A DNA stretch of 64,000 bases from Cafeteria roenbergensis (taxonomy: Eukaryota; Sar; Bigyra; Bicosoecida; Cafeteriaceae): the NCBI GenBank assembly GCA_008330645.1, contig VLTN01000002.1, forward strand, positions 186,001 to 250,000. Direction: 5' to 3'. The translations under genes were made by a program, and so were the position numbers. This document shows positions 13,708-36,045 of the stretch, piece after piece; positions within the stretch are counted from its first letter, which is position 1, and every line of letters starts with the position of its first letter. The notes beneath the pieces were generated by a model, which saw nothing but the letters and a program-made list of their open reading frames with translations, searched no databases and was not told where the DNA came from.

Positions 13708-16270
13708 ATGGACAGCGTGCTGGGCGAGTCGCCGACAAGAGTTGCATTCTCATCGCCGTTGCCGACGTTCGGCCTGGCAAGCAGCGCCCTGTCGCAGTCC
13801 GACCTGGCCGGCGAGTCCCCTTCGCGCTACGACGGAGCTATTCTGCGACGCGCACAGGCCAGGCTGCGCTTGTCCCGGTTTGCGGAAGGCGACTCGGGAG
13901 CAACGGGCGACAGCCCCGCCTCGCGCTCCCTTGCGGGCTCGGGCCTGGACCGGGCCCTGAACAGCATCGACGCCGCCTTCGCTGAGTACGGGCCCGAGAA
14001 ACGCAGAGGGGCGAGCAGGCCTGCGAATCCCGCAGCCGGGCGGGCAAGCGCGGTTGCGTTGCCGAGAAGGCCATCCCGCCGCGGCTCCGCCCGCCACTCG
14101 GCCGACATCGTCCCCGAGGCAGCCGGAAACGCGTCGCCGGCTCTCCCCTCGCCGCCACTGCCGCCAACACACGCCAAGCCTGCGGCAGTCGTGGCAGCGC
14201 AGGGTGCGCCGCCTGTGCGCCGGGTGCGAGTGGTGAAGCGCCCAGGCGCAACTGCGGCGCCTGCGGCTGCCCTTGCCGCCCCAGCCCCCGCACAGGCACC
14301 GCAGCCTGTTCGGCGGGTGGCAGCGGTTGCATCCGAGTCCCCACACCCGCAGGGTGCGCCAGGAGCGGCAGGGCGGCCGGCCGGCCCAGCGCTTGGCACC
14401 GTCGGTCCGGCCAGGCCGTTCCCGCGCACCGCTCGTGCCCTGCGCTCAGGGGTGGGGCAGTTGCACGACGCGGCGGACGACCTGCGCGAGGCTGTGAAGT
14501 CAGAGCTTCGGCTCACCATGAAGGCCTTTGCCGGGGGCGTGCGCGCCCTCCTCGGCTCCGCAGCCCGCGCGGAGGCCGAGGCGGAAGGCGCCGCAGAGGC
14601 TCTGAGGCGCGCGAACGAGCGAGCAGACGCGGCGGAGAGGAGAGCGTCCCAGCTGGAGGCGGAGCTTCTGAGCGCCGAGGCCCGTGCGAAGGAGGCGCAC
14701 GTGGAGGCCGCCCGCATGGCCGCCGAGCGGGACGAGGCCGCTGCCGCCACGAGGAAGCGTGAGCTGCGACCGCTGGCGCCGCCGGTGGACGGGGCCCCGA
14801 CCCCGCTGCTGTTCCCCACCGTCCCGCCGTTGCCCCGCCGCGCATTTGCTCCATCCTCGCCCCTCCGCTGCGCCACCGCCCCGCCGTTGCCCCGCCGCCC
14901 CGCTGTCACCCTGCGCAGTTCGGCACGCGCTTCACGAGGCACGCGGCACAGTGAGGGTGCTCTGCCGGGTGCGCCCATCGCTGCCGACCGAGGGGGGTTG
15001 CTCGGTCGGCGGCGCCGGCGCAGCGGTGCGCTGCCTGGGCGAGGTCGACGACGTCGACGGCGGCGAGGCCGTCATGTTCGTGGCCCCGGCAGGGGCCCCT
15101 CGCGGTCCCCTGCGGTCGTACGACGACGTGCTGGGCGGGATGCGGTGCGCTGCGGCGAGCGCCGACAGGGGGGTGGTGGAGACGGCGGAAGGTGACCAAG
15201 GCCGGGTCGTCCGGTTCGACCGGGTGCTCGGCCCGGCGTCGGAGCAGCAAGACGTCTTTGCGGAGCTGGCACCGCTGGTGGAGGGCGTGATGCGGGGCAG
15301 GAGCGCGTGCCTCGTGGCCTTCGGGCCGTCGGGGAGCGGCAAGACTCACACGCTCTATGGGCCACCGGCGCCGGCAGCGGGCTGCGGCCGCCGCGGTGGC
15401 CGAGGGGACGAAACTGCGGCTGCCCAGGCTGCGGCAGGGGGAGGGGTCGGCGCGACAGGCGGCCTGTGGTCGGCGGCGGGGGTGGTGCCTCGCGCGGCAG
15501 CTGTGCTCGCGGCGGCAGCTGCCGGGACAGACGCTGGCGGTCGCTCACGGCAGCGGCTCACGGTGGCGGCGCTGTCGATTTCCGCCGTGGAGGTGTACAA
15601 CGAGGAGGTGCGCGACCTGATTCACGAGCACGACCCCAGCAGCATGGAGCCGGACGGCCCGAGGCCGATCAGGGGCGGCATCGACGGGGCTGTCTGGCTG
15701 CGGGTGGGGTCCGCCGCTGACGCCTCGGCGGCCATCGAGACGGCGTTGCGGCGACGGTCGTCCAGGGGCACGGAGATCAACGAGACGTCGAGCCGCAGCC
15801 ACATGATCGTGAGGCTGCGGGCCTCGCTCGAGGCCCCCTGGCGGCGCAAGGCGGCGGGGGCGGGCGGCCAGCGGGGCAAGGCGCCCGCTGCAGCGAGCAG
15901 TGGCGGCGGCGCCGGCGGCGGCAGCGCGTCGTCCGGGCGCGCGGAAGCCACTCTTGCCATCGCAGACTTGGCTGGCAGCGAGCGGGCGAGGGCAAGCGGC
16001 ACCGTGCGGGCGGGCAAGGCGGCCGCGCTGGCGGAGACGGGAGCCGTCAACAAGAGCCTATCGGCGCTGAGCAACGTGATGATGGCGCTTGCGGCGCAGG
16101 ACAAGTTCGTTCCTTTCCGCGACAGCGCGCTCACGCGGTGCCTGCAGCCGTACCTGTCGGGCCGGAGCAGGACCGTGCTGCTCGTGGCCGTCAGCCCCGG
16201 GGCCAAGCACGCCGGGCTGACGCTTCGAGCCCTGGAGTTCGGGGCGCGAGTGAGCATGGTGCGTGGCTGA
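13708..16270 (+). CDS. Kinesin-14-type motor, C-terminal motor domain
   Basis: Exon 1 (13708-14758) encodes a disordered, Ser/Pro/Ala-rich N-terminus and, from about residue 270, a charged coiled coil (EGAAEALRRANERADAAERR). Exon 2 (14919-16270) begins with the neck LRHALHEARG and goes straight into VRVLCRVRP, the kinesin-14 arrangement of stalk then motor. The phase-1 junction is AAG C|TT; the intron is 160 bases with repeated CCGTTGCCCC units. Motor motifs: P-loop GPSGSGKTHT (about residue 488), EVYNEEVRDL, switch I NETSSRSH, switch II LADLAGSE, INKSL-type VNKSLSALSNV, and C-terminal LRALEFGARV. The total is 800 residues. Kinesin-14s are minus-end-directed and act in spindles or short-range transport. 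There is no tail beyond the motor. The stop is TGA. Confidence 0.9.
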
Positions 16271-24956: not shown

Positions 24957-27412
24957 ATGCTGCAGGCAGGCGCCTTGCTGCTTTTCGCCGGGCTGGTCGC
25001 CGCGTCTTGCCCAAACGACTGCTCGGGCCACGGACGGTGTGGGGACCACGGCCGGTGCGCCTGCTTCGGCGATTGGTTCGCAGGAGACTGCTCCATGCGT
25101 GAGTGGCCGCCGCCGAAGCCCAGCTTCGTCGACGCCGCGCAGGTCGGCGTTTGTTGGTCGTGCAAAGCCCCAACCGATGTGCCTGCCCCACTTCCCGTGT
25201 TGCAGGACGGTGCCCGCGAGACGTGGCGTGGTCCGATGTGACCCTGCCAGACGGCACGGCCCACAACGTTGCCGAGTGTTCCAATCGAGGGACCTGCGAC
25301 TACACAACAGGCAAATGCACATGCGACGCGCTCTTCGAAGGCAAGGCTTGCCAGCGACGTGAGCCTCGTCGACGGAGCCGCGGTCACTTCGAGCAACCTG
25401 CGAGGCTGTGGTGTTTGCCGGCCCCGGCCCGCGCGCAATCGCTCGGCTGCATTCCACTTGCCACGTGCCCTGCCTGCTTGGTGCTCGCCATCGCCGCAGT
25501 CAAGTGCGCTGAGGATTGCGGGGACGCCGGCATCTGTCAGTCCCTCCACACGCGCTCCGAAGAGCTGGAGGCATCGGAGGGCCTCTTCCACTACTGGTCT
25601 CCCTGGGACGCTGAAAAGGTGTTTGGTTGCTCCTGCGACCAAGGTCATGCCGGCTACGCCTGCCAGCACTTGGCCTGCAGCAGGGGCACTGACCCCATGA
25701 CGGAGGCCCAGGCCTGGCCCACCATCGTGCTGCGGTGCGACTACGATCCTCAGTCGTCGCCGGACGTGGCGTTCCGGCTCAGCCGCGGAGGCAAGCACAG
25801 CGGCATCGTTCGAGCCAGCTCAACGGCGCACGACCTGAGACAGCAGCTGGAGGCAATGCCGGGGCTGGGCCGCGTCGAGGTGCGCATCGACAGCAAGTCA
25901 GGCAACCTCAGCACGGTCTGCGGAGCCCCGCAAGGCAACGGCAAGTCCGAGGGGGTTGTCGTCATCGGGCTGCGCGACAGGCCCCGCGACTCTCCCCCGC
26001 TTCTCCTAAAGCACGCCGACGGAAGACAGCTCGACGGCATGCTGGCGAACAAGATCGTGACTGCCACACGTGGCGAGGGCCTGGTCCGAGGAGGCGACAG
26101 CGATGCCGACGTTGTGGTGTCCAACACGGGCACTGTGGAGAGCGTGCCGTGCTCTGGCCGGGGCTTCTGCGAGGAAACTGGGCAGTGCATGTGCGCGGAG
26201 GGCTTCGGTTCGAGCGACGGCCACGGGGCGAGCGGCTCCCGCCCGGACTGCGGTTTCGCGATCGGCGGGAAGGACCAGGTGGCCGCGTGCCCGCGAAGCA
26301 CTCTCCACAGCGAGGTCCCATGCTCGGGGCACGGCCGCTGCACGGGCATGCCGTCGTGGCGCTGCGAGTGCGATGACGGCTGGATGGGGCCGGACTGCAG
26401 CATTCGGGGGTGTCCTTGGGGCAGATCGTGGTTCGACGTGCCGGTGATCGGCCCCAACGTGGCTCATCAGCCGTCCGAGTGCAGCGACATGGGCACCTGC
26501 GACCGTCTGACTGGACAGTGCGACTGCCGCGAGGGATTCGGGGGATCGGCCTGCGAAGTCATGGAGTGCCCCGGGACACGGCCGACGGAAGAAGCCGGAC
26601 GGGTCGCCGACAAGGAGGGGCGGAAGCAGGTGGCAGCGCCGTGCTCAGGGCACGGGCAGTGCCTGACGATGCGGAGGCTGGCGGATTTCGCCACGGACAA
26701 CGGCGTGCCGGTGTCGGTGGCCTATGGAGAAGATCGCGGCGACCCGCACCAGTGGGACAGCACAAGCGTGCGCGGCTGCAAGTGTGACGATGGGTGGGAG
26801 GGCCACGACTGCGGTCGGCGCTCCTGCCCCCGGGGAAATGACCCCGCAAACGACGGGTCGCCCGGGTCTGGGCAAAACAACGAGGAGCAGTCGCTGCAGT
26901 GCATTTTCGTCTCCGGCAACCCAGCGTTCCGGTTGGCTTTTCGAGGCGAGTCGTCGCAACTTATCCCGCACACTGCTTCGGAGGCGCAAGTCAAGGGCGC
27001 GCTGGAAGCGATGGGCACCATTGGCCGGGTCGAGGTCTCGTTCGGAGGCGCTGCACAGGCTTGTACGACAGGAGACGGCACTGCAATCGTCATCCACTTT
27101 GAGACAGAGCATGGGGACCTTCCGAACGTGACCGCCGTGTCGCAGGACGATCTCACGGCGGGAGTGCTCAAGATCAACGCCACAGCCACTGAGCTGGTCA
27201 GGGGAACAACAGAGACCGCGGAGTGCAATGACAGGGGGCTGTGCGACTACGGGATGGGGCAGTGCGTCTGCTTCCCGGGCTGGGGCTCAAGCGACGGCAC
27301 CAATCGCCCAGGGGTGACAGGGGACTGCGGGTACAGGGTGCCGTACAGCCTGCCCAAGGACAGGCAAGCCGCATGGCTCAGGCGACGGCGCCAAGTAGGG
27401 ATGGAAGAGTGA
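24957..27412 (+). CDS. Secreted EGF-like repeat protein
   Basis: Exons 24957-25098, 25206-25358 and 25500-27412 join in frame (phase 1 both times) to give 735 residues. A signal peptide (MLQAGALLLFAGLVAAS) leads directly into a first EGF-like module, CPNDCSGHGRCGDHGRCAC. Around seven more modules follow, many of the form CSGHGxC...CxCxxGWxGxxC, as in teneurin and tenascin EGF repeats. Between EGF modules lie two copies of a non-EGF repeat (about residues 235-340 and 585-680): FRLSRGGKHSG... and FRLAFRGESSQL..., each followed by LEAMxxxGRVEV. This matches the repeat of the FN3 protein at 1-3238. No transmembrane segment is seen at the C-terminus, so it is probably secreted or matrix-bound. Cysteine pairing is extensive. 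Ligand and role unknown. Confidence 0.86.
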
Positions 27413-27496: not shown

Positions 27497-30400
27497 TCAC
27501 GCCCTGAACCCGCCGGCATTCGCCCGCCCTGTGGGGCTCAAAGGCACCGCCTTGGGCGACGCGGGAACGTCGCTGCCGACGCTGCCACTGCTTGACTTGG
27601 TGCGAACGTGCCTGGGCTTGCCGGCTCTGGGCGCTGCGGGGAACCCGGTTGGCTCTGCCTTGATCCGCCGACCGTGCATGTCATAGCGCGAGCGAATGGC
27701 CGAGCCAGGGGTCGCTGCCCCGCGCGTGGCACCTGCTGCGGCGCGCCGCGCCCGTCGGACCGGCGTTCGGGCTTCCGAGCCCCCCCCAGCCGCCCCTTGC
27801 CGGCTGTGCGCCGGCACGTGCACGTGCACAGGCACAGGCACAGGCGCTGGCACACGAGGAGGCGACGCCGCTCGTGCGCCGGTCAACGCGGCTGTCTCGG
27901 CCAGTGCCGCAGTGTCTGTGCCGCGCCACAGCGCCATGCGTGCCAGCGCGTAGGCCGACGTGTTGGGTGAGGCCAGCGCGGCCTGGTGGCGCTGCAGGAA
28001 CGTGGCCGCCAGCCTTCCGGCTGGGGACCGCCCGTCCAGCAGGCTCGGCGACGACGCGATGCGCCGCGGGCGAGAGGCGTGCGCCCCCGCAATGGCAGCG
28101 TCCAGGACCCGGATCGGGGAGGGCGGACATCCGAGCGCCGAGGCCGAGACGTCGCTCTCCATACTGGAGGACGTTGCGGCCCGAGCCCGGGCCTGGCGAG
28201 ACCCGGCCTCTGAGCCGACTTCGCCAGCCACCACCATGCCGTGCCGGCTCCCGCCCCCGGCCCCGCTCGCGCCTCCGCTGGGCTGGGCAGAGCTCGAAGC
28301 TGCTCTCGCGGCAGCGGCGGCGGCTGCGGCGACCTGCGCCTCCGCAGCGGCGGCTTTGGCACCGGACGCAGCTGCCGCAGCCTCTGCTCGGCGGAGCCTG
28401 TCTTCAAGAGCGGAGATCCTTGCCTGCGCCTCGGTCAGCTGATCGCTGGTCTTCTTCAGCCGGCGCTTCAGCTTGGCAGACGCACCCGGCCCGGCGCCAG
28501 CCGAGCCAGCGGCCCGCACCGCCCTGGCCCGCTCGGCAAACTGAAGCGTCCGGAGGGTCTCCGGCGCGTCGGCAGCGTCTGGAGCGACGGCTGCGAGCAG
28601 CACGGTCGCGGCCCCGGGCCCGACTGCGTCAGACAGCACTGTCGTCAGCAGCGAGTCTCGCCATGGAACGTGCCCGCCGCCCTGCCCGGCACCCGCGGCG
28701 CCACCCGCCTTCCTGGCCTCGTCCCCCTTTGCAAGGGCCTGCATGACGTTGCCAAGGGCAGACAGGCTCTTGTTGATCGCGCCGGCCTCCTTGGCCCGGT
28801 CGGCCGCCTCCTGCTTGCCCATGGGGCCGCTCGCCGCAGACGCCGCCGGAGTCGAGGCGCCGTCCATCGCTCCTGTGCGCTTCAGCCGCTCGCTCCCAGC
28901 AAGGTCCGCGAGCACAAGCTTGCCCTCCGGCAGCAGCCTGCCCGCGTCAACCTCGTCCTCAATTGCCTGAGAGAGCGCACCCGACGAGACCGACGTCGCC
29001 CCAGCGGTGTTCGTGGAGTCTGTGCTCTGCCTGGACCGGTACAGCCCCAAGACCACCACGCAGTGGCTCCGGGAGGACGACGCGTTCATCGATGTTGATG
29101 AAGTGGCGCGGCGCGCCGCCACGGTGGCCAGAAGCCTCGCCCCGTCCGCCTCGCAGGTCACGGCAACTGCCACCGCACCAGGGAGCTCCACAGCCCCGTC
29201 GCGCCTGCGCGGCACGATCTTGCCCTCGATTGAGGACGAGCCGGAGCGCTGGTGGTGGTGCGCGTGGTGCTTGCCGCGCCCAGCAGCAGAGCCAGCAGCA
29301 GCCGCGCTGCCCAGCCCGTCTCGGAGCAGGTCGATGACTGCGTCGTTGTGGACCTCCACAGCGTTGACGCGCACCACCATCTCCCCGGACTGCACTCTCG
29401 CGTCCGCCAGCGCCATGGCAAGCGCCCTCGGGACCACCCCGCGCCCGGCCCTGGCCGCAAACTCGCCCTCCGCCCCAGCTGCGGCCCCGCTTCCGGCCGC
29501 CAGCCTCGCCGCGCCGCCCTCGAGCCCCATCGTGTGTGTCTTCCCAGAGCCCGTCTGCCCGTAGGCCAGCACGCACCCCACGCCCCCTTGAAGCGCGTGG
29601 GCCACAGCGGGCTCCGCCTCGTCCCACACGTGCGCCTGCGAGCACGACGGCCCGAGCACTCGGTCCACCGCAAAGTCGGCCGACGAGCCGGCAGCGCCGC
29701 TCACTGCCGACCGGAGCCGCACCGTTTCGACCCCGCTTGCAGACGGCCCGCTGACTCCGCCCTCGCGGCTGGACCCCGGCATCGCAATGGCCATCTCAGC
29801 CTCGGCCTCGGCCTCGCCGGCGCCGCCGCCCGCAGCGGCCCACCCGGCCCTCGGCGGCCGCACGCGAACGACGACCCGGACCCTCGCCCGCGACCGCAGC
29901 AGCTCGGCCTTGGCGACCATCGCCTCGGCCCGGTACAGCGCGACCGACGCCGCCCCTCGCGCCGCCGCCTGCTTCACGGCCCGGGCGGCCTCCCGCTGGA
30001 TCGTCTGCACGAAGAGCACGTGCTGCTGGCGCAGTGTCTGGACGTCGGCGGCGAGCGCTGCAGCGGCCATGGCCGCGGCCCGCGGAACGGGCGCGCGCGA
30101 CGCGCCCGCGGGCTCTGCCGCCGAGGCCACGATTGGCGATGCCATGCCGTCCGCCATCGCGCTCGGCCTGCGGCTCCGTCGGTCCGCAGAGCTGGATGGG
30201 ATTGACAGCGGGCGCAGGGCACTCCCAGTGGAGGAAGACCCGAGGCTGGCCCGAGACCGAGCGCGGGACAGGCGGCGGCCGGGTGATGGCCTAGCGATGG
30301 ACAGACGACCCCCCTGCATGGACCCAGCCCGGCGGAGCGAGGAGGGGCCTCCCGACCCCACGCGGTCCAGCGACGGCAGCCGGGCAGAGGAGCAGGTGGA

Positions 30401-31894
30401 GTCCCTGCCGGCGCCCGGCCCGGCCGGCCCCCCCACAGACCAGCGGGGCACCAGCGCCCCGGCGCGAGCGCCGGCCTCCGACGCCGCGGCAGACGCCGGG
30501 CGCGGGGAGCGGGCGGCTGCAGACACTGCTGCCACCGCGCCTGTCAGCATGGCGGCAGCGTAGCCGGGGAGGAGCAGCACGGTGCCCGGCAGCGCTGTCC
30601 CGCCTGGCGAAGTGAGCTGCTGCAGCGCGGCTGGCACGTCCTCGTCGTCGGGCTCGTCGCCGTCGTCGGCTTTGCTGCCTGCATGGCCGCCGGCGGAGGC
30701 GACGGCTTCTGCCGCAGCCTCCAGCTCTGCCTCAGAGGCAAGCCAGGAGTCGTCCGGGGGGTCGGTCACGAACCCGCAGGCGAGGGCCGCGGGCTCTCCC
30801 GGCCGACCCGCCGCCACCGCCCTGACGAGGCTGAAGCAAGTCGACCAGAACAGGTTCGCGCGCTCCTCCCTCAGACGGTGGAGGTGGCCGTGGGCAGCGC
30901 CCTCGTGCGCCACCACACCGCGAATCTCGCGCGCGATGGCAGCGGGGCCGAGGACCTCCACCCACACGCCATCGGCGGTGTCCGCTGCCGCGGCAGAGGC
31001 AGGCACCACGCAGAGCCGCGGCACCATTTGGCTCCCACACGAGGCGCAGGGCACAGAGTAGCTAACCCCGCCCCCGCCCCCGCCCCCGCCTCCGCCGCTG
31101 CCGCTGCCGCCCGCGCCCGTCGTCGGGGCGCCGGGGTCGGAGGCTCTCTTTCCCGGATCAGCCCGGCTTGCACGCGCGACCGCTCTGGCGGCAGCGGTGT
31201 AGGTCGAGTCCTCGCCGCACCTGTGGCACGAGCAGCCGGCGCCCCGCTCCGCGCGCAGCCCGGCGGGTCGCAGCACCGCGTTGAGCGTCTCGAGGTCCGG
31301 GTCGCGGTCTGCAGCGGCCGCCCCCGCTCGGGGCCCAGCACCTGCAGAGCCGTCCTTCGAGGCGCGGAAACCCTCCCCGCCCTCGGCCTCCTCGTCCCCG
31401 TCCTCCTCCTCATCGCCGCTGATTGCGGAGCCGGCGCTGGCGAGCAGAGCACCCGCCGACGTCACCGCCACGGCAGTCAGCCCCGACATGGCCAGAGCGC
31501 GAACAAGCCTGCTCTGCGCCTCCAGGAGGCCAGCGACGGGGCTGCCGCCGGCGGCGGCGGCGGCGAGCTCAAGCAGCGCCCTGTGGGCCTCGAACACCGC
31601 CCGCACGTCGCCTGCGAGACACGCCGCCTCAGCCGCCGCCGCAAGCGCTGCCGGCCGCCGACGACCTTCCGCTGCCTCGGCAGCCGCCCCTGCCTGCTCT
31701 GCCAGCTCTGCCACGCTGCTCGCGAACACCGGGTTGCATGGCCGGGACCAAGCGTCGTGCGGCAGTGCGGCGGCGGGGACTGGGACGCCGGCCCCGACAG
31801 CGTCGCTCGCGCTCCGTGCCGACACGCCCGACGAGAACGCGCTCTGGCCCGCGCGATGGCCTCTCCTGCTGGTGGGAGAGAAGATCGGGCTCAT
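27497..31894 (-). CDS. Kinesin motor module with DENND4-like C-terminal region (probably 3' part of a DENN-kinesin gene)
   Basis: From the ATG at 31894 the frame is open for 1465 residues. Residues about 40-140 are Ala-rich helices, like the repeats after DENN domains in DENND4. Then come two Cys pairs (CSCHRC near 225, CASCG near 285) and a segment, LGPAAIAREIRGVVAHEG...LFWSTCFSLVRAV, that aligns with the conserved C-terminal region of DENND4. A Ser/Arg linker and a helix lead into a complete kinesin motor (about 672-1123): RVRVVVRVRPP, P-loop GQTGSGKTHTMG, VNAVEVHNDAVIDLL, NASSSRSH, LADLAGSERLKRTGA, INKSLSALGNVMQAL, LRTLQFAERARAV. A coiled coil (KLKRRLKKTSDQLTEAQARI) and a disordered tail follow. 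Kinesin class unclear; the neck helix before the motor recalls kinesin-14. A DENND4-type segment inside this frame argues it belongs to the same gene as the DENN module upstream. Confidence 0.85.
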   Translation of the reverse strand: MSPIFSPTSRRGHRAGQSAFSSGVSARSASDAVGAGVPVPAAALPHDAWSRPCNPVFASSVAELAEQAGAAAEAAEGRRRPAALAAAAEAACLAGDVRAVFEAHRALLELAAAAAGGSPVAGLLEAQSRLVRALAMSGLTAVAVTSAGALLASAGSAISGDEEEDGDEEAEGGEGFRASKDGSAGAGPRAGAAAADRDPDLETLNAVLRPAGLRAERGAGCSCHRCGEDSTYTAAARAVARASRADPGKRASDPGAPTTGAGGSGSGGGGGGGGGGVSYSVPCASCGSQMVPRLCVVPASAAAADTADGVWVEVLGPAAIAREIRGVVAHEGAAHGHLHRLREERANLFWSTCFSLVRAVAAGRPGEPAALACGFVTDPPDDSWLASEAELEAAAEAVASAGGHAGSKADDGDEPDDEDVPAALQQLTSPGGTALPGTVLLLPGYAAAMLTGAVAAVSAAARSPRPASAAASEAGARAGALVPRWSVGGPAGPGAGRDSTCSSARLPSLDRVGSGGPSSLRRAGSMQGGRLSIARPSPGRRLSRARSRASLGSSSTGSALRPLSIPSSSADRRSRRPSAMADGMASPIVASAAEPAGASRAPVPRAAAMAAAALAADVQTLRQQHVLFVQTIQREAARAVKQAAARGAASVALYRAEAMVAKAELLRSRARVRVVVRVRPPRAGWAAAGGGAGEAEAEAEMAIAMPGSSREGGVSGPSASGVETVRLRSAVSGAAGSSADFAVDRVLGPSCSQAHVWDEAEPAVAHALQGGVGCVLAYGQTGSGKTHTMGLEGGAARLAAGSGAAAGAEGEFAARAGRGVVPRALAMALADARVQSGEMVVRVNAVEVHNDAVIDLLRDGLGSAAAAGSAAGRGKHHAHHHQRSGSSSIEGKIVPRRRDGAVELPGAVAVAVTCEADGARLLATVAARRATSSTSMNASSSRSHCVVVLGLYRSRQSTDSTNTAGATSVSSGALSQAIEDEVDAGRLLPEGKLVLADLAGSERLKRTGAMDGASTPAASAASGPMGKQEAADRAKEAGAINKSLSALGNVMQALAKGDEARKAGGAAGAGQGGGHVPWRDSLLTTVLSDAVGPGAATVLLAAVAPDAADAPETLRTLQFAERARAVRAAGSAGAGPGASAKLKRRLKKTSDQLTEAQARISALEDRLRRAEAAAAASGAKAAAAEAQVAAAAAAAARAASSSAQPSGGASGAGGGSRHGMVVAGEVGSEAGSRQARARAATSSSMESDVSASALGCPPSPIRVLDAAIAGAHASRPRRIASSPSLLDGRSPAGRLAATFLQRHQAALASPNTSAYALARMALWRGTDTAALAETAALTGARAASPPRVPAPVPVPVHVHVPAHSRQGAAGGGSEARTPVRRARRAAAGATRGAATPGSAIRSRYDMHGRRIKAEPTGFPAAPRAGKPRHVRTKSSSGSVGSDVPASPKAVPLSPTGRANAGGFRA

Positions 31895-34800
31895 TGCCCC
31901 AGCGAGCTCTGCCAGCGTGGAGCCCCGAGCGGCGCACCGAGGAAGGGGGCAGCCGATGGGGATCTGACGTGGCGGCCGGCGTGCGCGCTGCCGGCGGCGG
32001 CCTCTGCTTGGTCGAAGTCTGCCGCCGCAGCCGCGGCCGCGGCCGCAGCCGAAGCCCTGTCCACTCGCTCCTGCTCGTCGATGAGGCGCTGCACGCGCTC
32101 CCGCACCATGCGGCGCCGCTTTCGCGCCGTGAGCGGGGCCCGCGGCGGCCACGTTCCGCCCACGGGCGCGGGATTCCGTCGCCCCAGCGCCCGAGAGAGC
32201 ACAGACGACATCCACGACGCGGCTCCAGCCGGCTTTGGGGCGGGGGATGCCGCCGCGGCCACTGCCGCCGCATCGGGCCCCACGGCTCGTACACCCGCCG
32301 AGAGGCGGTGCCTCCGCTGCTTCGAGCTCTGCCGCCGCTCAGCGCGGTGTTTGGCTGCCTCAGCCTGCGACAAGCCAAGAGGGGTGGCCAACAAACATCG
32401 AGTCAAAGGCTGGCGGCGCCGGGGCGAGCGATCGCATCAGCGGCGTGCGATCGCCTCAGCAGCGCAGCGAGCCAGCAGGGCAGGGGCCCGCGCGCGCAGC
32501 ACCAGCTGTCTCGGCTGCTGCAACGAGCACCGTACTCCGAAGCGAGACGACAATCGCTGCGCTGCAACCCGTGCCGGTCGGCGCCCGAGCTCACCTCGCG
32601 TCTCTCATCGCTGGCGCGTCTCTCGTCCGCAAAGGCGCGCTCTGTAGCGAGCAGGTCCGGGAGGGGTGGCACGCGCAGGGTGAGCGTCGCCAGAGCGTCG
32701 GCGACAGCGGCCAGTTGCGGCCCGATGGGCACGGGGGGCGGGCCGGACGCGGCGGAGCGCGGACCGCACTCGGGGGCCTCGGCGATGAACGTCTGAAGAG
32801 GCGCGTACCGGGGGTCGGCCAGCAGGCGGTCAGCGGTGCTGTCGGCGTCGAGCAGCGCGTCCAGAAACCGCAGCTGCGAGGATGCAGTCGAGAGAACGCA
32901 TTGGTTTGGGGGGGGGGGGGACAGATGGCGGAGGGCGTGGGCGGAGGGGCCTTGTGCAGAGCGCAGCGCGGGCGGGGCGCGGGCGGGGCGCGGGCGGGGC
33001 CGGTGGAGTTTCCTCGCCGGGAGAGCGAGGCGGTTCGGGGCCGGCGCGCAAGCAGCGCAGATGCATCCCATTGCTCTGAGTAGCGCTGGTGCATCCCATT
33101 GCTCTGAGCAGCGCTGGTGCATCCCATTGCTCTGAGCAGCGCTGGTGCATGCCATTGCTCTGAGCAGCGCGCGCATGGCCAGGGCTCGTGCGGCGTCCGC
33201 TCCCTCTGGGGAGGCATGCGCGACGCGTCTCACGTCCATCTCGTCGTCAGTGTCGACCGAACCGCGGCGGTCGCAGTAGCAAGCCAGCGCCTGCGTCTGC
33301 AGCAGCGCCTCCAGCATGGCGGAGAGAGCGCTGTTCCGCTTGACAGCCGCTCGCGCCGTCCCAACGTCCAGTACGACGTGGGCCCCACCGAGCAGCTCGG
33401 GGCCGAACGACGGTCCGCTGCGCCCGCCGCCCGGCGCAGCATCACGAGCGGGCGAAGCTCCAGCCGCAGCCGCAGCCGCGGCCGCAGCGCGCGCAGCCTC
33501 CGCTGCCTCGGCCTCGTGCCTGAGACAGAAGGCGTCGTCAATGGCGCGCAGCAGCGGCACCCACACTGCGGCAGAGGCAGCCAGCAGGCGCGACGACCTG
33601 GGGCCGCACCCGCCCGCGACCTGGCCCCGGTCAGGGGGCTGCAGAGCCTCCGCCGCAGCGGCGGCCACCTCCGCCGCCGCAGCGGCGGCCGGCCCTCCCC
33701 TGCCAGCGGCTGCGGTGCCGTCGTGCGGCCGCAGCCTTGCGATGACGGCCGCGAGCTCCCGCTCGGCGTCGGCCGGTATGGGCAGAAGAGACGCCATCGC
33801 CCGCTTTCCCGGGGCCACCGTCCCGGCCCCGATGTCCACAACCACAACGTCGGAGGGCAGAGGGCCAAGTGCGGCCACGGCGTCCAGCCGCTCGCGCGAG
33901 GCTCCGATGAAGATGGGGCAGGGCGCCTCGAGCACCGAGCGCAGCGGGAGAGTGTCGGGCAGAGCCGGAATCAGGGCGTGCTCCCACCGAAGGGGCCAGA
34001 GCTGGGCCAGGGCGGCGGTGCAGAAGGGTGCCAGCAGCGCTGGGGCGTGCGACGCTGGAGCCACGACCACCACCTTTGACTCAGCGGCGAGGGCTCGCAG
34101 CAGGCGGACGCAGCCGCGCGGGGAGAGAAGGCGACCGGGCAGGCTCAGGGTCCAGTCGTCGAAGAGGAACGGGTGGGCGTTGAGGGGCGGGCGCGACAGA
34201 GCCCAGGACGCGTCCCCAAGGGTCAGCTGAACGGCGCCCAGGCCGCGAGGGGGCAGGGGCACCCCGAACACAGCAAAGTGCGCCGCCCTCGCCGCTTCCT
34301 CCGCGGAGCAAGCAGCCCCGCCCAGCACGTACCTGAGCGTGGCGTGGAGCTGCCGGAACAGCGGCAGCCTGCCGACGCAGCACACGGCAACCCGGTCCTC
34401 GCGCCGGCCGGAGGCAGACGGGAGCTCCACGGCGCACCCGTACTTTTGCGTGCGGGCCTCGTCCGTCAGCACAAAGGCTGTTGCCCGCGGCTGGCCGGAG
34501 GCCGGCTTGTCGCCGAGGAACTGCAAAGCAAGGCGCGGAATCGCATGGCAGCGCCGCCGACAACACATCCTCGCAAGACGCGCATGCACGCCGTCGCGAG
34601 CGTCCGCGCCCGATCCGCAATGGTCCGCCGCGCCCCGAGGGCGGGCGTGCTCATCGCCCCGGTGCGCGGCAGTCGCGCGGCAAGCACGCTCACCATGCCC
34701 AGCTGCTCCGCAGCAACAGGAGCCTTTCCAGCTCCCGGCACAGACCACACTGCGAGGACCACGCGATACGTTGAAAAGGGCGGGCGCTCGGTCCGGGGCT

Positions 34801-34963
34801 CGCGCTTGGCCGCCGCGGGCGCGCCTGCAGCAACAAACTTGCAAACGCCGCAGCTTCCGGAGCGCCTCTCACGCTCCTCCCAGTCGTCCTCGCCCATGCG
34901 AATCGCGACGACGGCTTCTAGGAACGTCATGATGCCATCCTCTCTGGGGGAAAACGCGCTCAT
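31891..34963 (-). CDS. DENN-domain Rab GEF module (probably 5' part of the same DENN-kinesin gene)
   Basis: Exons: 34963-34694, 34520-33234, 32873-32595 and from 32364. Junctions are all phase 0 with GTGAG donors. The uDENN part contains TAFVLTDEARTQKYGCAVEL. The cDENN core has LLAPFCTAALAQLWPLRWEH, ALIPALPDTLP, EAPCPIFIGA and VVVVDIGAGTV. The dDENN part has MLEALLQTQALACY joined across the 360-base intron to LRFLDALLDADS. DENN domains switch on Rab GTPases by nucleotide exchange. After dDENN comes a charged helix (DERREAEAAKHRAERRQ) and a basic one (LTARKRRRMVRERVQRL). Read on, this frame stops at 31893-31891, overlapping the ATG of the kinesin module by two bases. A 62-base intron (31968-31907, GTCAGA...CAGAG) would instead join both frames into about 2213 residues, but its signals are weak. 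A frame error in the sequence is another possibility. Confidence 0.82.
32970..33002 (+). repeat. 11-bp G-rich tandem repeat, three copies
   Basis: Three near-identical units of GGGCGGGGCGC lie in the third-intron region of the DENN module. A 13-base G run sits nearby at 32908-32920. Both could form G-quadruplexes on this strand. Confidence 0.75.
33061..33170 (+). repeat. 28-bp tandem repeat, four copies, intronic
   Basis: Four consecutive units begin with GTGCATCCCATTGCTCTGAG; the first and last differ by one or a few bases and the last is cut short. The array lies in the 360-base intron (33233-32874) between two dDENN exons. If read through, it yields a repetitive peptide, but splice signals remove it cleanly. 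Confidence 0.9.
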
Positions 34964-35112
34964 GGCGCCTGGCTCCCGTGCCCAGGCGTGCAGCAAGCCC
35001 TCTCGCAACGGGCGACAACCGGGCGTTGGCAGAGCCTGCGAACCTGCGAGAATGGCGAGCCCGACTCCCAGCGTCGCCCGCCGAGAGCACCGGCCGACGA
35101 GAAGTGGCCGCG
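34964..35112. promoter_or_regulatory. Short divergent promoter, DENN-kinesin / pyroglutamyl-peptidase
   Basis: Only 149 bases separate two divergent start codons, one of the tightest shared promoters in the window. No named element seen. Confidence 0.45.
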
Positions 35113-36045
35113 ATGGCCGCACGCGCTGACCACACCCCGGCTGAATCCGCGGAGCGCGCGCCGGTGGCAGCCTTCGTGACGGGGTTCGGGTCCTTCGCGG
35201 GCGTCAGCGACAACCCCAGCGCCCGCCTGGCCGCCAGCCTGCCAGACGTTGCGGCGGCAAGCGCCGGCCCCGATCGGAAGTGGGGGTTGGAATCGTGCGA
35301 GGTCGTGCACGTGTCGCGGCGCGGCTGCCTTGAGGCACTGGACCGGATGGAGGCAAACGCGCCCACGGACAGGCCGAGCGTGTTTTTGCATTTTGGAGTT
35401 GCCGACGGCTCGTCGTGCGCGCGCCTGGAACGGACTGCGTACAACCTCGCGCATTTTCGCGTCCCTGACGAGTCGTGAGGCTGCTGGGGGAGCGGGGCCC
35501 TTGCGAGCGCCGATTCGCGTTGAGAGGGCTGGCACTGCAACTCGCCCTGCGCTTGCTTCGCTGCCGCGCCGCCTCGCAGCGGGGAGGCACCCAAGTGCGA
35601 GAAGGTCTTGCCCGAGTTCGACCTTGGGCACGCATGCAAGGCCGAGCTCGACTGTGCTGCCGTGGTCGATCGCGTCGACGACCCGGCGCGCAGACTGACG
35701 CTCTCCGACGATCCTGGCAGATTTGTGTGCAATTTCCTCGCGTTCTCGTCCATGAAGCGAACCGCGGCTTGGAACGCGCCGGGTACGGCGCCGAAGCGGC
35801 TGGCCGTTTTCTGGTGAGGCTGCATGCCGTCGCGCGTCCGCCGCCGGACCAGGCTGGGCAGCTGCCTGCGCCGCTGTTTTCGTTGGTATCCGTGCCTGGC
35901 AAAGCCGAGGACGGTTCCCTCCGCTCTGTGTCCCGGTTCCCGCAGCCACATTCCCGCGCTGGGCGTGCTTGGCGAGGACGCCGGACTGCAGCTCGCGTTG
36001 GACCTGCTGGACGCCCTTGCAGCCGAAGCGTTGGCAAGCACTTGA
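35113..36045 (+). CDS. PGPEP1: Pyroglutamyl-peptidase I (family C15)
   Basis: This cysteine peptidase removes N-terminal pyroglutamate from peptides in the cytosol. Exons: 35113-35474, 35580-35813 and 35946-36045, total 231 residues. The junctions TC|C and TG|C rebuild conserved sequence. Seen: VTGFGSFAGVSDNPSARLA near the start (family GFGPF..NPS motif), VFLHFGVADGSS, a GRFVCNF motif with the catalytic Cys at about 171, and FCHIPALG with the catalytic His at about 200, formed by the last junction. The C-terminal helix LALDLLDALAAEAL fits the family. The first exon read alone ends at 35478 and would lack the active site, so splicing is required. Introns are 105 and 132 bases. The family is usually about 200-215 residues, so the length fits with a short N-terminal extension. 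Confidence 0.9.

Follow-up and report, generated by a model that had tools for sequence, protein, structure and literature searches.

A predicted protein of Cafeteria roenbergensis joins a DENN domain to a kinesin motor

The DENN protein MADD acts on Rab3 as a GEF and also binds KIF1A/KIF1Bbeta to move Rab3 vesicles (PMC10959120); this link, named in the first-pass annotation of the locus described here, is thus in print. MADD is both a Rab GEF and the motor adaptor for the vesicles of that Rab, and it and its motors are separate polypeptides that bind each other. A second connection is known from the worm, in which denn-4 acts on RAB-10 and RAB-10 interacts genetically with kinesin-1 (PMC4669152). 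DENND4A, DENND4B and DENND4C, with fly Crag and worm denn-4, are Rab10 GEFs, and full-length DENND4C carries PF10240, the MABP-type region ahead of uDENN. On the motor side, a kinesin survey described 105 domain architectures, most of them confined to one organism (PMC2867816). The gene reported here resembles the kinesins with lineage-specific extra domains in that survey in combining a motor with an added domain.

Cafeteria roenbergensis is a marine bacterivorous stramenopile of which four strains have been sequenced (PMC6972860). Analysis of a stretch of 64,000 nucleotides of one contig (hereafter the window) revealed a gene with a DENN domain and a kinesin motor together, running from 34963 to 27497 on the minus strand. 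A Pfam search of the window placed the DENN domain (1.9e-18) directly upstream of the kinesin motor (1.7e-60) on the same strand, as had been read from the open frames. Both domains already stand in a single public C. roenbergensis model, FNF29_00400 (P0002, 2084 aa), with DENN at residues 94 to 280 (8.1e-18) and kinesin at residues 1353 to 1745 (3.5e-60). P0002 maps to the minus strand as six blocks from 34963 to 27500; its first ATG lies at 34963, its last codon ends at 27500 and the stop reaches 27497, which fits the limits 27497..34963 given by the first-pass annotation. When the frame is read as in a related protein, P0001, the predicted length is ~2189 aa (about 2,190 residues). The public gene models come from BRAKER, for which transcripts of strain E4-10P served as training data (PMC6972860), and are predictions rather than transcript proof. 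The apparent DENN-kinesin fusion noted earlier is well supported as a prediction: related proteins, codon bias, the reading frame and a splice pair all speak for it, and the DENN and kinesin halves very probably form one polypeptide. The gene is laid out as follows.

27497..34963, minus strand: whole predicted gene, from the mapping of P0002 in six blocks
34521..34963, minus strand: N-terminal part, exon structure uncertain, without MABP-type region or complete uDENN
33234..34520, minus strand: DENN exon of 429 codons, taking in the end of uDENN and the cDENN (P0002 mapping)
33828..34388, minus strand: cDENN, PF02141, P0002 residues 94-280 (Pfam E 8.1e-18; DENND1B in PDB, 1e-4)
32874..33233, minus strand: P0002 intron GTGAGA ... 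TCGCAG, no clear codon bias, with a tandem repeat of roughly 30 bases inside
32595..32873, minus strand: exon after DENN with a charged, helix-like stretch at its end, at the position of dDENN, which was not detected
32365..32594, minus strand: junction intron GAG|GTGAGC ... GTCGCAG|GCTGAG, no codon bias inside, linking DENN frame and kinesin exon
32192..32364, minus strand: 57 coding-like codons, by codon bias, ahead of the first ATG of their frame
31923..31926, minus strand: G-run at or beside a one-base frame shift, read through in P0001 and P0004
31217..31234, minus strand: first Cys group CSCHRC, by sequence (CACHRC in P0004)
30821..31048, minus strand: second Cys pair CASC and a 47-residue segment lining up with the DENND4C tail (P0004 block 102/118 identical)
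28517..29884, minus strand: kinesin motor, RVRVVVRVRPP to AERARAVR, with GQTGSGKT, SSRSH and DLAGSE
27497..28516, minus strand: post-motor part with coiled-coil-like stretch, Ser/Ala-rich tail and terminal stop, by sequence

The tandem repeat, with a unit of roughly 30 bases (plus-strand GCTCTGAGCAGCGCTGGTGCATCCCATT), is present in about four copies at 33061-33170, within the intron that follows the DENN exon. Four related proteins were aligned, namely P0002, P0001 (1591 aa), P0004 (1524 aa) and P0003 (2166 aa). P0001 and P0004 each keep one frame from the linker after DENN up to where the kinesin ends, and stop short of the DENN exons; P0004 is 75% identical in the protein search and 81% identical to P0002 in the alignment. 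P0003 comes from a contig of 15,619 bases filed under Symbiodinium sp. KB8 and holds DENN and kinesin in one model, with 98% and 100% identity to the Cafeteria protein over the two regions searched. The record of P0003 carries the annotation KIN4A, Symbiodinium sp. KB8.

The motor region scored 204 bits against a Pfam cut-off of 29.3. The P-loop, switch I and switch II are the defining motifs of kinesins, and GQTGSGKT, SSRSH and DLAGSE are intact in all four aligned proteins. The best PDB matches were KIF3C, an unnamed kinesin, kinesin-5 and KIF4, and the three best paralog matches in the genome are 38 to 45% identical. By sequence, the motor is a divergent kinesin with no family assignment. 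The MADD partners KIF1A and KIF1Bbeta are kinesin-3 motors, whereas the Cafeteria motor has no kinesin-3 assignment.

In the DENN part, cDENN scored 65 bits (cut-off 23.4) and is nearly full length, covering profile positions 5 to 184 of 186; it is 23 to 29% identical to cDENN of the DENND4 proteins. Pfam gave no uDENN match at E<=10 for either P0002 or P0003, and only the end of this domain, its last strands (FVLTDE..YG), aligned with DENND4C, in a region where the N-terminal model is uncertain. With the same Pfam library, uDENN is detected in L009, another of the genome's DENN genes (4e-8), in a scan of the DENN loci that read minus-strand loci in the wrong orientation. Likewise, dDENN had no Pfam match in P0002 or P0003 at E<=10, and a candidate dDENN from pairwise alignment was rejected, since 920 of 2000 shuffles reached its score. 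No MABP-type region was matched in P0002, P0003 or the upstream frame. The module of uDENN, cDENN and dDENN that had been read here thus holds for cDENN by Pfam and in part for uDENN, while dDENN went undetected by Pfam and the pairwise test. Unlike DENND4, the Cafeteria protein shows no detected MABP-type region or dDENN and only a partial uDENN. The weak detection of uDENN and dDENN may reflect divergence or a wrong N-terminal model. P0002 sets two introns in 34521-34963, with donors at 34872 and 34693; P0003 reads through most of this stretch and splices its N terminus differently, and codon bias keeps to frame 0 across both introns. The public N terminus of P0002 may therefore be too short.

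The open kinesin frame spans 1613 codons and extends far upstream of the motor, taking in the Cys pairs and the DENND4-like segment. When P0004 was compared with the read-through chain, identical residues numbered 50/50 in the MSSVLS block, 92/107 in the helical block, 51/58 in the first Cys block, 102/118 in the second Cys block, 25/26 in the LQQLTSPGG block and 372/457 in the motor, against 16/44, 8/15 and 11/29 in the loops; the post-motor part gave 60/72 and 202/268. The Cys-rich blocks are thus 86 to 96% identical, the motor 81% and the loops 36 to 53%, which indicates that the Cys-rich parts are conserved as strictly as the motor.

The first-pass annotation had described the start of the kinesin frame as bearing features of the C-terminal half of DENND4. 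The Cys pairs, the segment and the alignment are all present where it placed them, and the statistical significance of the likeness is weak. BLAST aligned 47 to 49 residues, ungapped, with VPYLSPLVLRKELE...FWNLVWYFRR of DENND4C; E values against fish DENND4C were 0.005 for P0004, 0.016 for P0001 and 0.037 for P0002, and those against human DENND4C were 0.033 to 0.16. In hhalign against DENND4C, the tail segment ranked second after DENN, and the pairing of CASC...VPRL with CPFC...LPLL ranked fifth, in the same order. The chain of blocks scored 90.25 against DENND4C; of 2000 column shuffles, 2 reached this score (fitted p 0.008), as did 15 of 2000 block shuffles (fitted p 0.03); control scores were 79.5 for the DENN part (622 aa, longer than the query), 68.5 for the reversed query and 53.8 to 65.8 for motor and tail pieces. 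In pairwise alignment, the scores of the window were reached by 16 (fish) and 23 (human) of 1000 shuffles, and that of P0004 against fish by 4 of 1000. The best alignment of P0004 with human DENND4C (59, 0/1000 shuffles) was discarded because it covers a Ser-rich stretch and not the motif. The paired-Cys pattern occurs in the DENN-kinesin locus alone among 9 DENN loci, in frames of at least 250 codons on the strand of the gene; the pattern was written after the gene had been seen.

These values, with shuffle p of about 0.001 to 0.03, are suggestive of a DENND4C-like tail made up of the middle segment and the paired Cys, which stand in the same order in DENND4C. A chance likeness, with no DENND4 tail and a DENN domain of another or an unassigned subfamily, is a possibility to be taken seriously, if the less probable one. 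A profile search with 11 distinct vertebrate DENND4C core segments gave nothing significant among 1246 frames plus proteins (P0004, E 28; P0001, E 78), nor did an HMM of 116 DENND4C tails among the same number of frames plus proteins. Human DENND4C matches the DENN gene on C50 slightly better than the DENN-kinesin gene (39.2 versus 37.8 bits), and tblastn with fish DENND4C listed five other DENN loci and omitted the DENN-kinesin gene. Two overlapping pieces among 65 others, from the unrelated kinesin frame L007, scored 59 against fish DENND4C, higher than the segment, through low complexity; these 65 pieces represent one forward frame per locus with minus-strand loci unturned, and some are antisense. 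Against chance speak the colinear blocks and their rarity among shuffles, the finding of the same segment by BLASTP in three related proteins, and the scores of the minus-strand loci in each of their three minus-strand frames, where the others reached at most 48, from the gene's own DENN frame, and the tail segment 50 and 46. Weak matches to the tail region on C100, C36 and C4 (E 0.02-0.6) contain internal stops and were not taken as homologs. For residues 225-400 of the kinesin frame, the claimed DENND4 match is thus borne out by half: weakly in BLAST against two DENND4C proteins (E 0.005-0.16) and in shuffles, and not at all with the vertebrate profiles. The gene is best called DENND4-like, and the conclusion that it is a fusion is independent of this label.

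From the N terminus on, the predicted chain would comprise a DENN module, a strongly conserved Cys-rich segment similar to the tail of DENND4, a linker rich in Ser and, in the centre, the kinesin motor. Given MADD and denn-4, the simplest reading is that the same chain of events takes place inside one molecule. With moderate confidence, we propose that the DENN part would bind, and probably activate, a Rab GTPase on a vesicle, and that the motor of the same chain would carry that vesicle along microtubules. Rab binding, the identity of the Rab, nucleotide exchange, transport, cargo and direction are what we infer from the domains. More tentatively, a single chain might recruit and activate its own Rab by a DENND4-type module and haul the vesicle so marked, which would make activation and motor recruitment inseparable. 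Exchange activity may have been lost, given the partial uDENN and the undetected dDENN. It is rather unlikely, although those two features and the double role of MADD as GEF and Rab3-binding motor adaptor (PMC10959120) would fit, that the DENN half of the fused protein is no exchange factor and, with uDENN and dDENN reduced, merely binds a Rab as cargo adaptor of the motor: cDENN is nearly complete, and divergence or a wrong N-terminal model may explain the weak flanking detection.

Reading of the fused chain meets one obstacle in the window itself. Frame 1 reaches a TGA at 31893-31891, after a one-base frame break in the G-run 31923-31926, and frame 0 continues. P0001 and P0004 carry ...PLGGST[LM]AELAGAMSPIFSPT... 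in one frame across this break. P0002 bypasses it by an intron at 31935-31610 or so and thereby drops residues that P0001 and P0004 retain in conserved form; this intron looks like an annotation artefact around the break. The P0003 model likewise skips the stretch. Were the break a real allele of the strain, the DENN part would be truncated, the motor, if made, would start from an internal ATG, and the fusion would exist in relatives only. That this is so appears improbable: the break persists in assemblies polished with PacBio and Illumina reads (PMC6972860) and P0003 omits the same stretch, but it concerns one base at a G-run in DNA of 76% G+C, a usual site of error, and codon bias runs on both sides of it.

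Evidence that the two halves form one gene comes from the junction. Across the DENN exons the codon bias is that of frame 2; from 32594 to 32365 there is none, and from 32364 onward it is that of frame 1. The 57 codons at 32364-32192 score 0.27 per codon, a value reached by 0 of 158 off-frame stretches and equal to that of the DENN exon (also 0.27). As they precede the first ATG of their own frame, they would need splicing from the DENN side. The switch of frame coincides with the junction splice pair. GTGAG is a good splice donor; the 7.5 kb contain it at 6 places on the sense strand, and four of these are the starts of P0002 introns, of which the first two may be coding, by codon bias. The absence of a gap between the DENN and kinesin frames, as noted earlier, therefore needs qualification: the two adjoin, with the predicted intron 32594-32365 and the frame break at 31923-31926 between them. 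The contig of P0003 looks like Cafeteria DNA within a dinoflagellate assembly and, if so, the neighbourhood of DENN and kinesin is no misassembly of the Cafeteria genome. Two tandem genes, in which a DENN gene would stop behind 32406 and a separate kinesin would begin with an ATG near 32191 or 31894, are very unlikely: a stop does close the DENN frame, ~210 bases ahead of the next frame's first ATG, P0002 and P0003, the two public models, each include doubtful introns and the deposited P0004 begins at an ATG equivalent to 32191, but the coding-like codons ahead of the ATG, the splice pair, the lack of codon bias between the frames, the joining of the halves in two separate gene models and the possible DENND4 tail on the kinesin side all argue for one gene.

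In the surveyed genome (36.3 Mb, 167 contigs), 9 DENN loci are present, and among the kinesin matches listed only the fusion gene has one close to its DENN domain; contigs C32 and C20 also carry DENN and kinesin, more than 100 kb apart. Opposite-strand frames bound the gene on both sides. One, at 25103-27412 on the plus strand, is an open frame with EGF/teneurin-like repeats that converges on the gene; the other, at 34978-35478, has a weak pyroglutamyl-peptidase match below the Pfam cut-off. The window also holds a second kinesin motor at 15179-16255 on the plus strand (E 1.9e-57). Elsewhere, the DENN domain of L011 (G000:C32, 22707-23261) lies in an open frame that runs to 5338 codons; a DENN protein of that size would be unusually large.

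Two protein searches, each limited to 8000 scored candidates, gave 4 and 2 proteins; none other than P0002 and P0003 combines DENN with kinesin, and divergent fusions may escape at that limit. The search with DENND4C showed no kinesin domain in the best 120 of 2385 matches, of which the named ones are vertebrate. No DENN-kinesin fusion is named in the titles or abstract openings of the literature searched, and the terms 'DENN' and 'Rab' are absent from the main text of the kinesin survey (PMC2867816). Most likely, the DENN-kinesin combination is a new domain architecture, on file in a database record and apparently undescribed.

In the animal cases, the DENN Rab GEF and the kinesin are separate proteins; in Cafeteria, they would be one predicted chain. 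A relative retains at least the stretch from the linker through the motor, with 75% identity. Because Cafeteria can be cultured and its genomes are public, the link between DENN and kinesin is directly testable. If the reading is true, a single protein might both label its cargo and transport it, and a natural fusion of this kind would hint that direct coupling of Rab handling to a motor is useful in itself.
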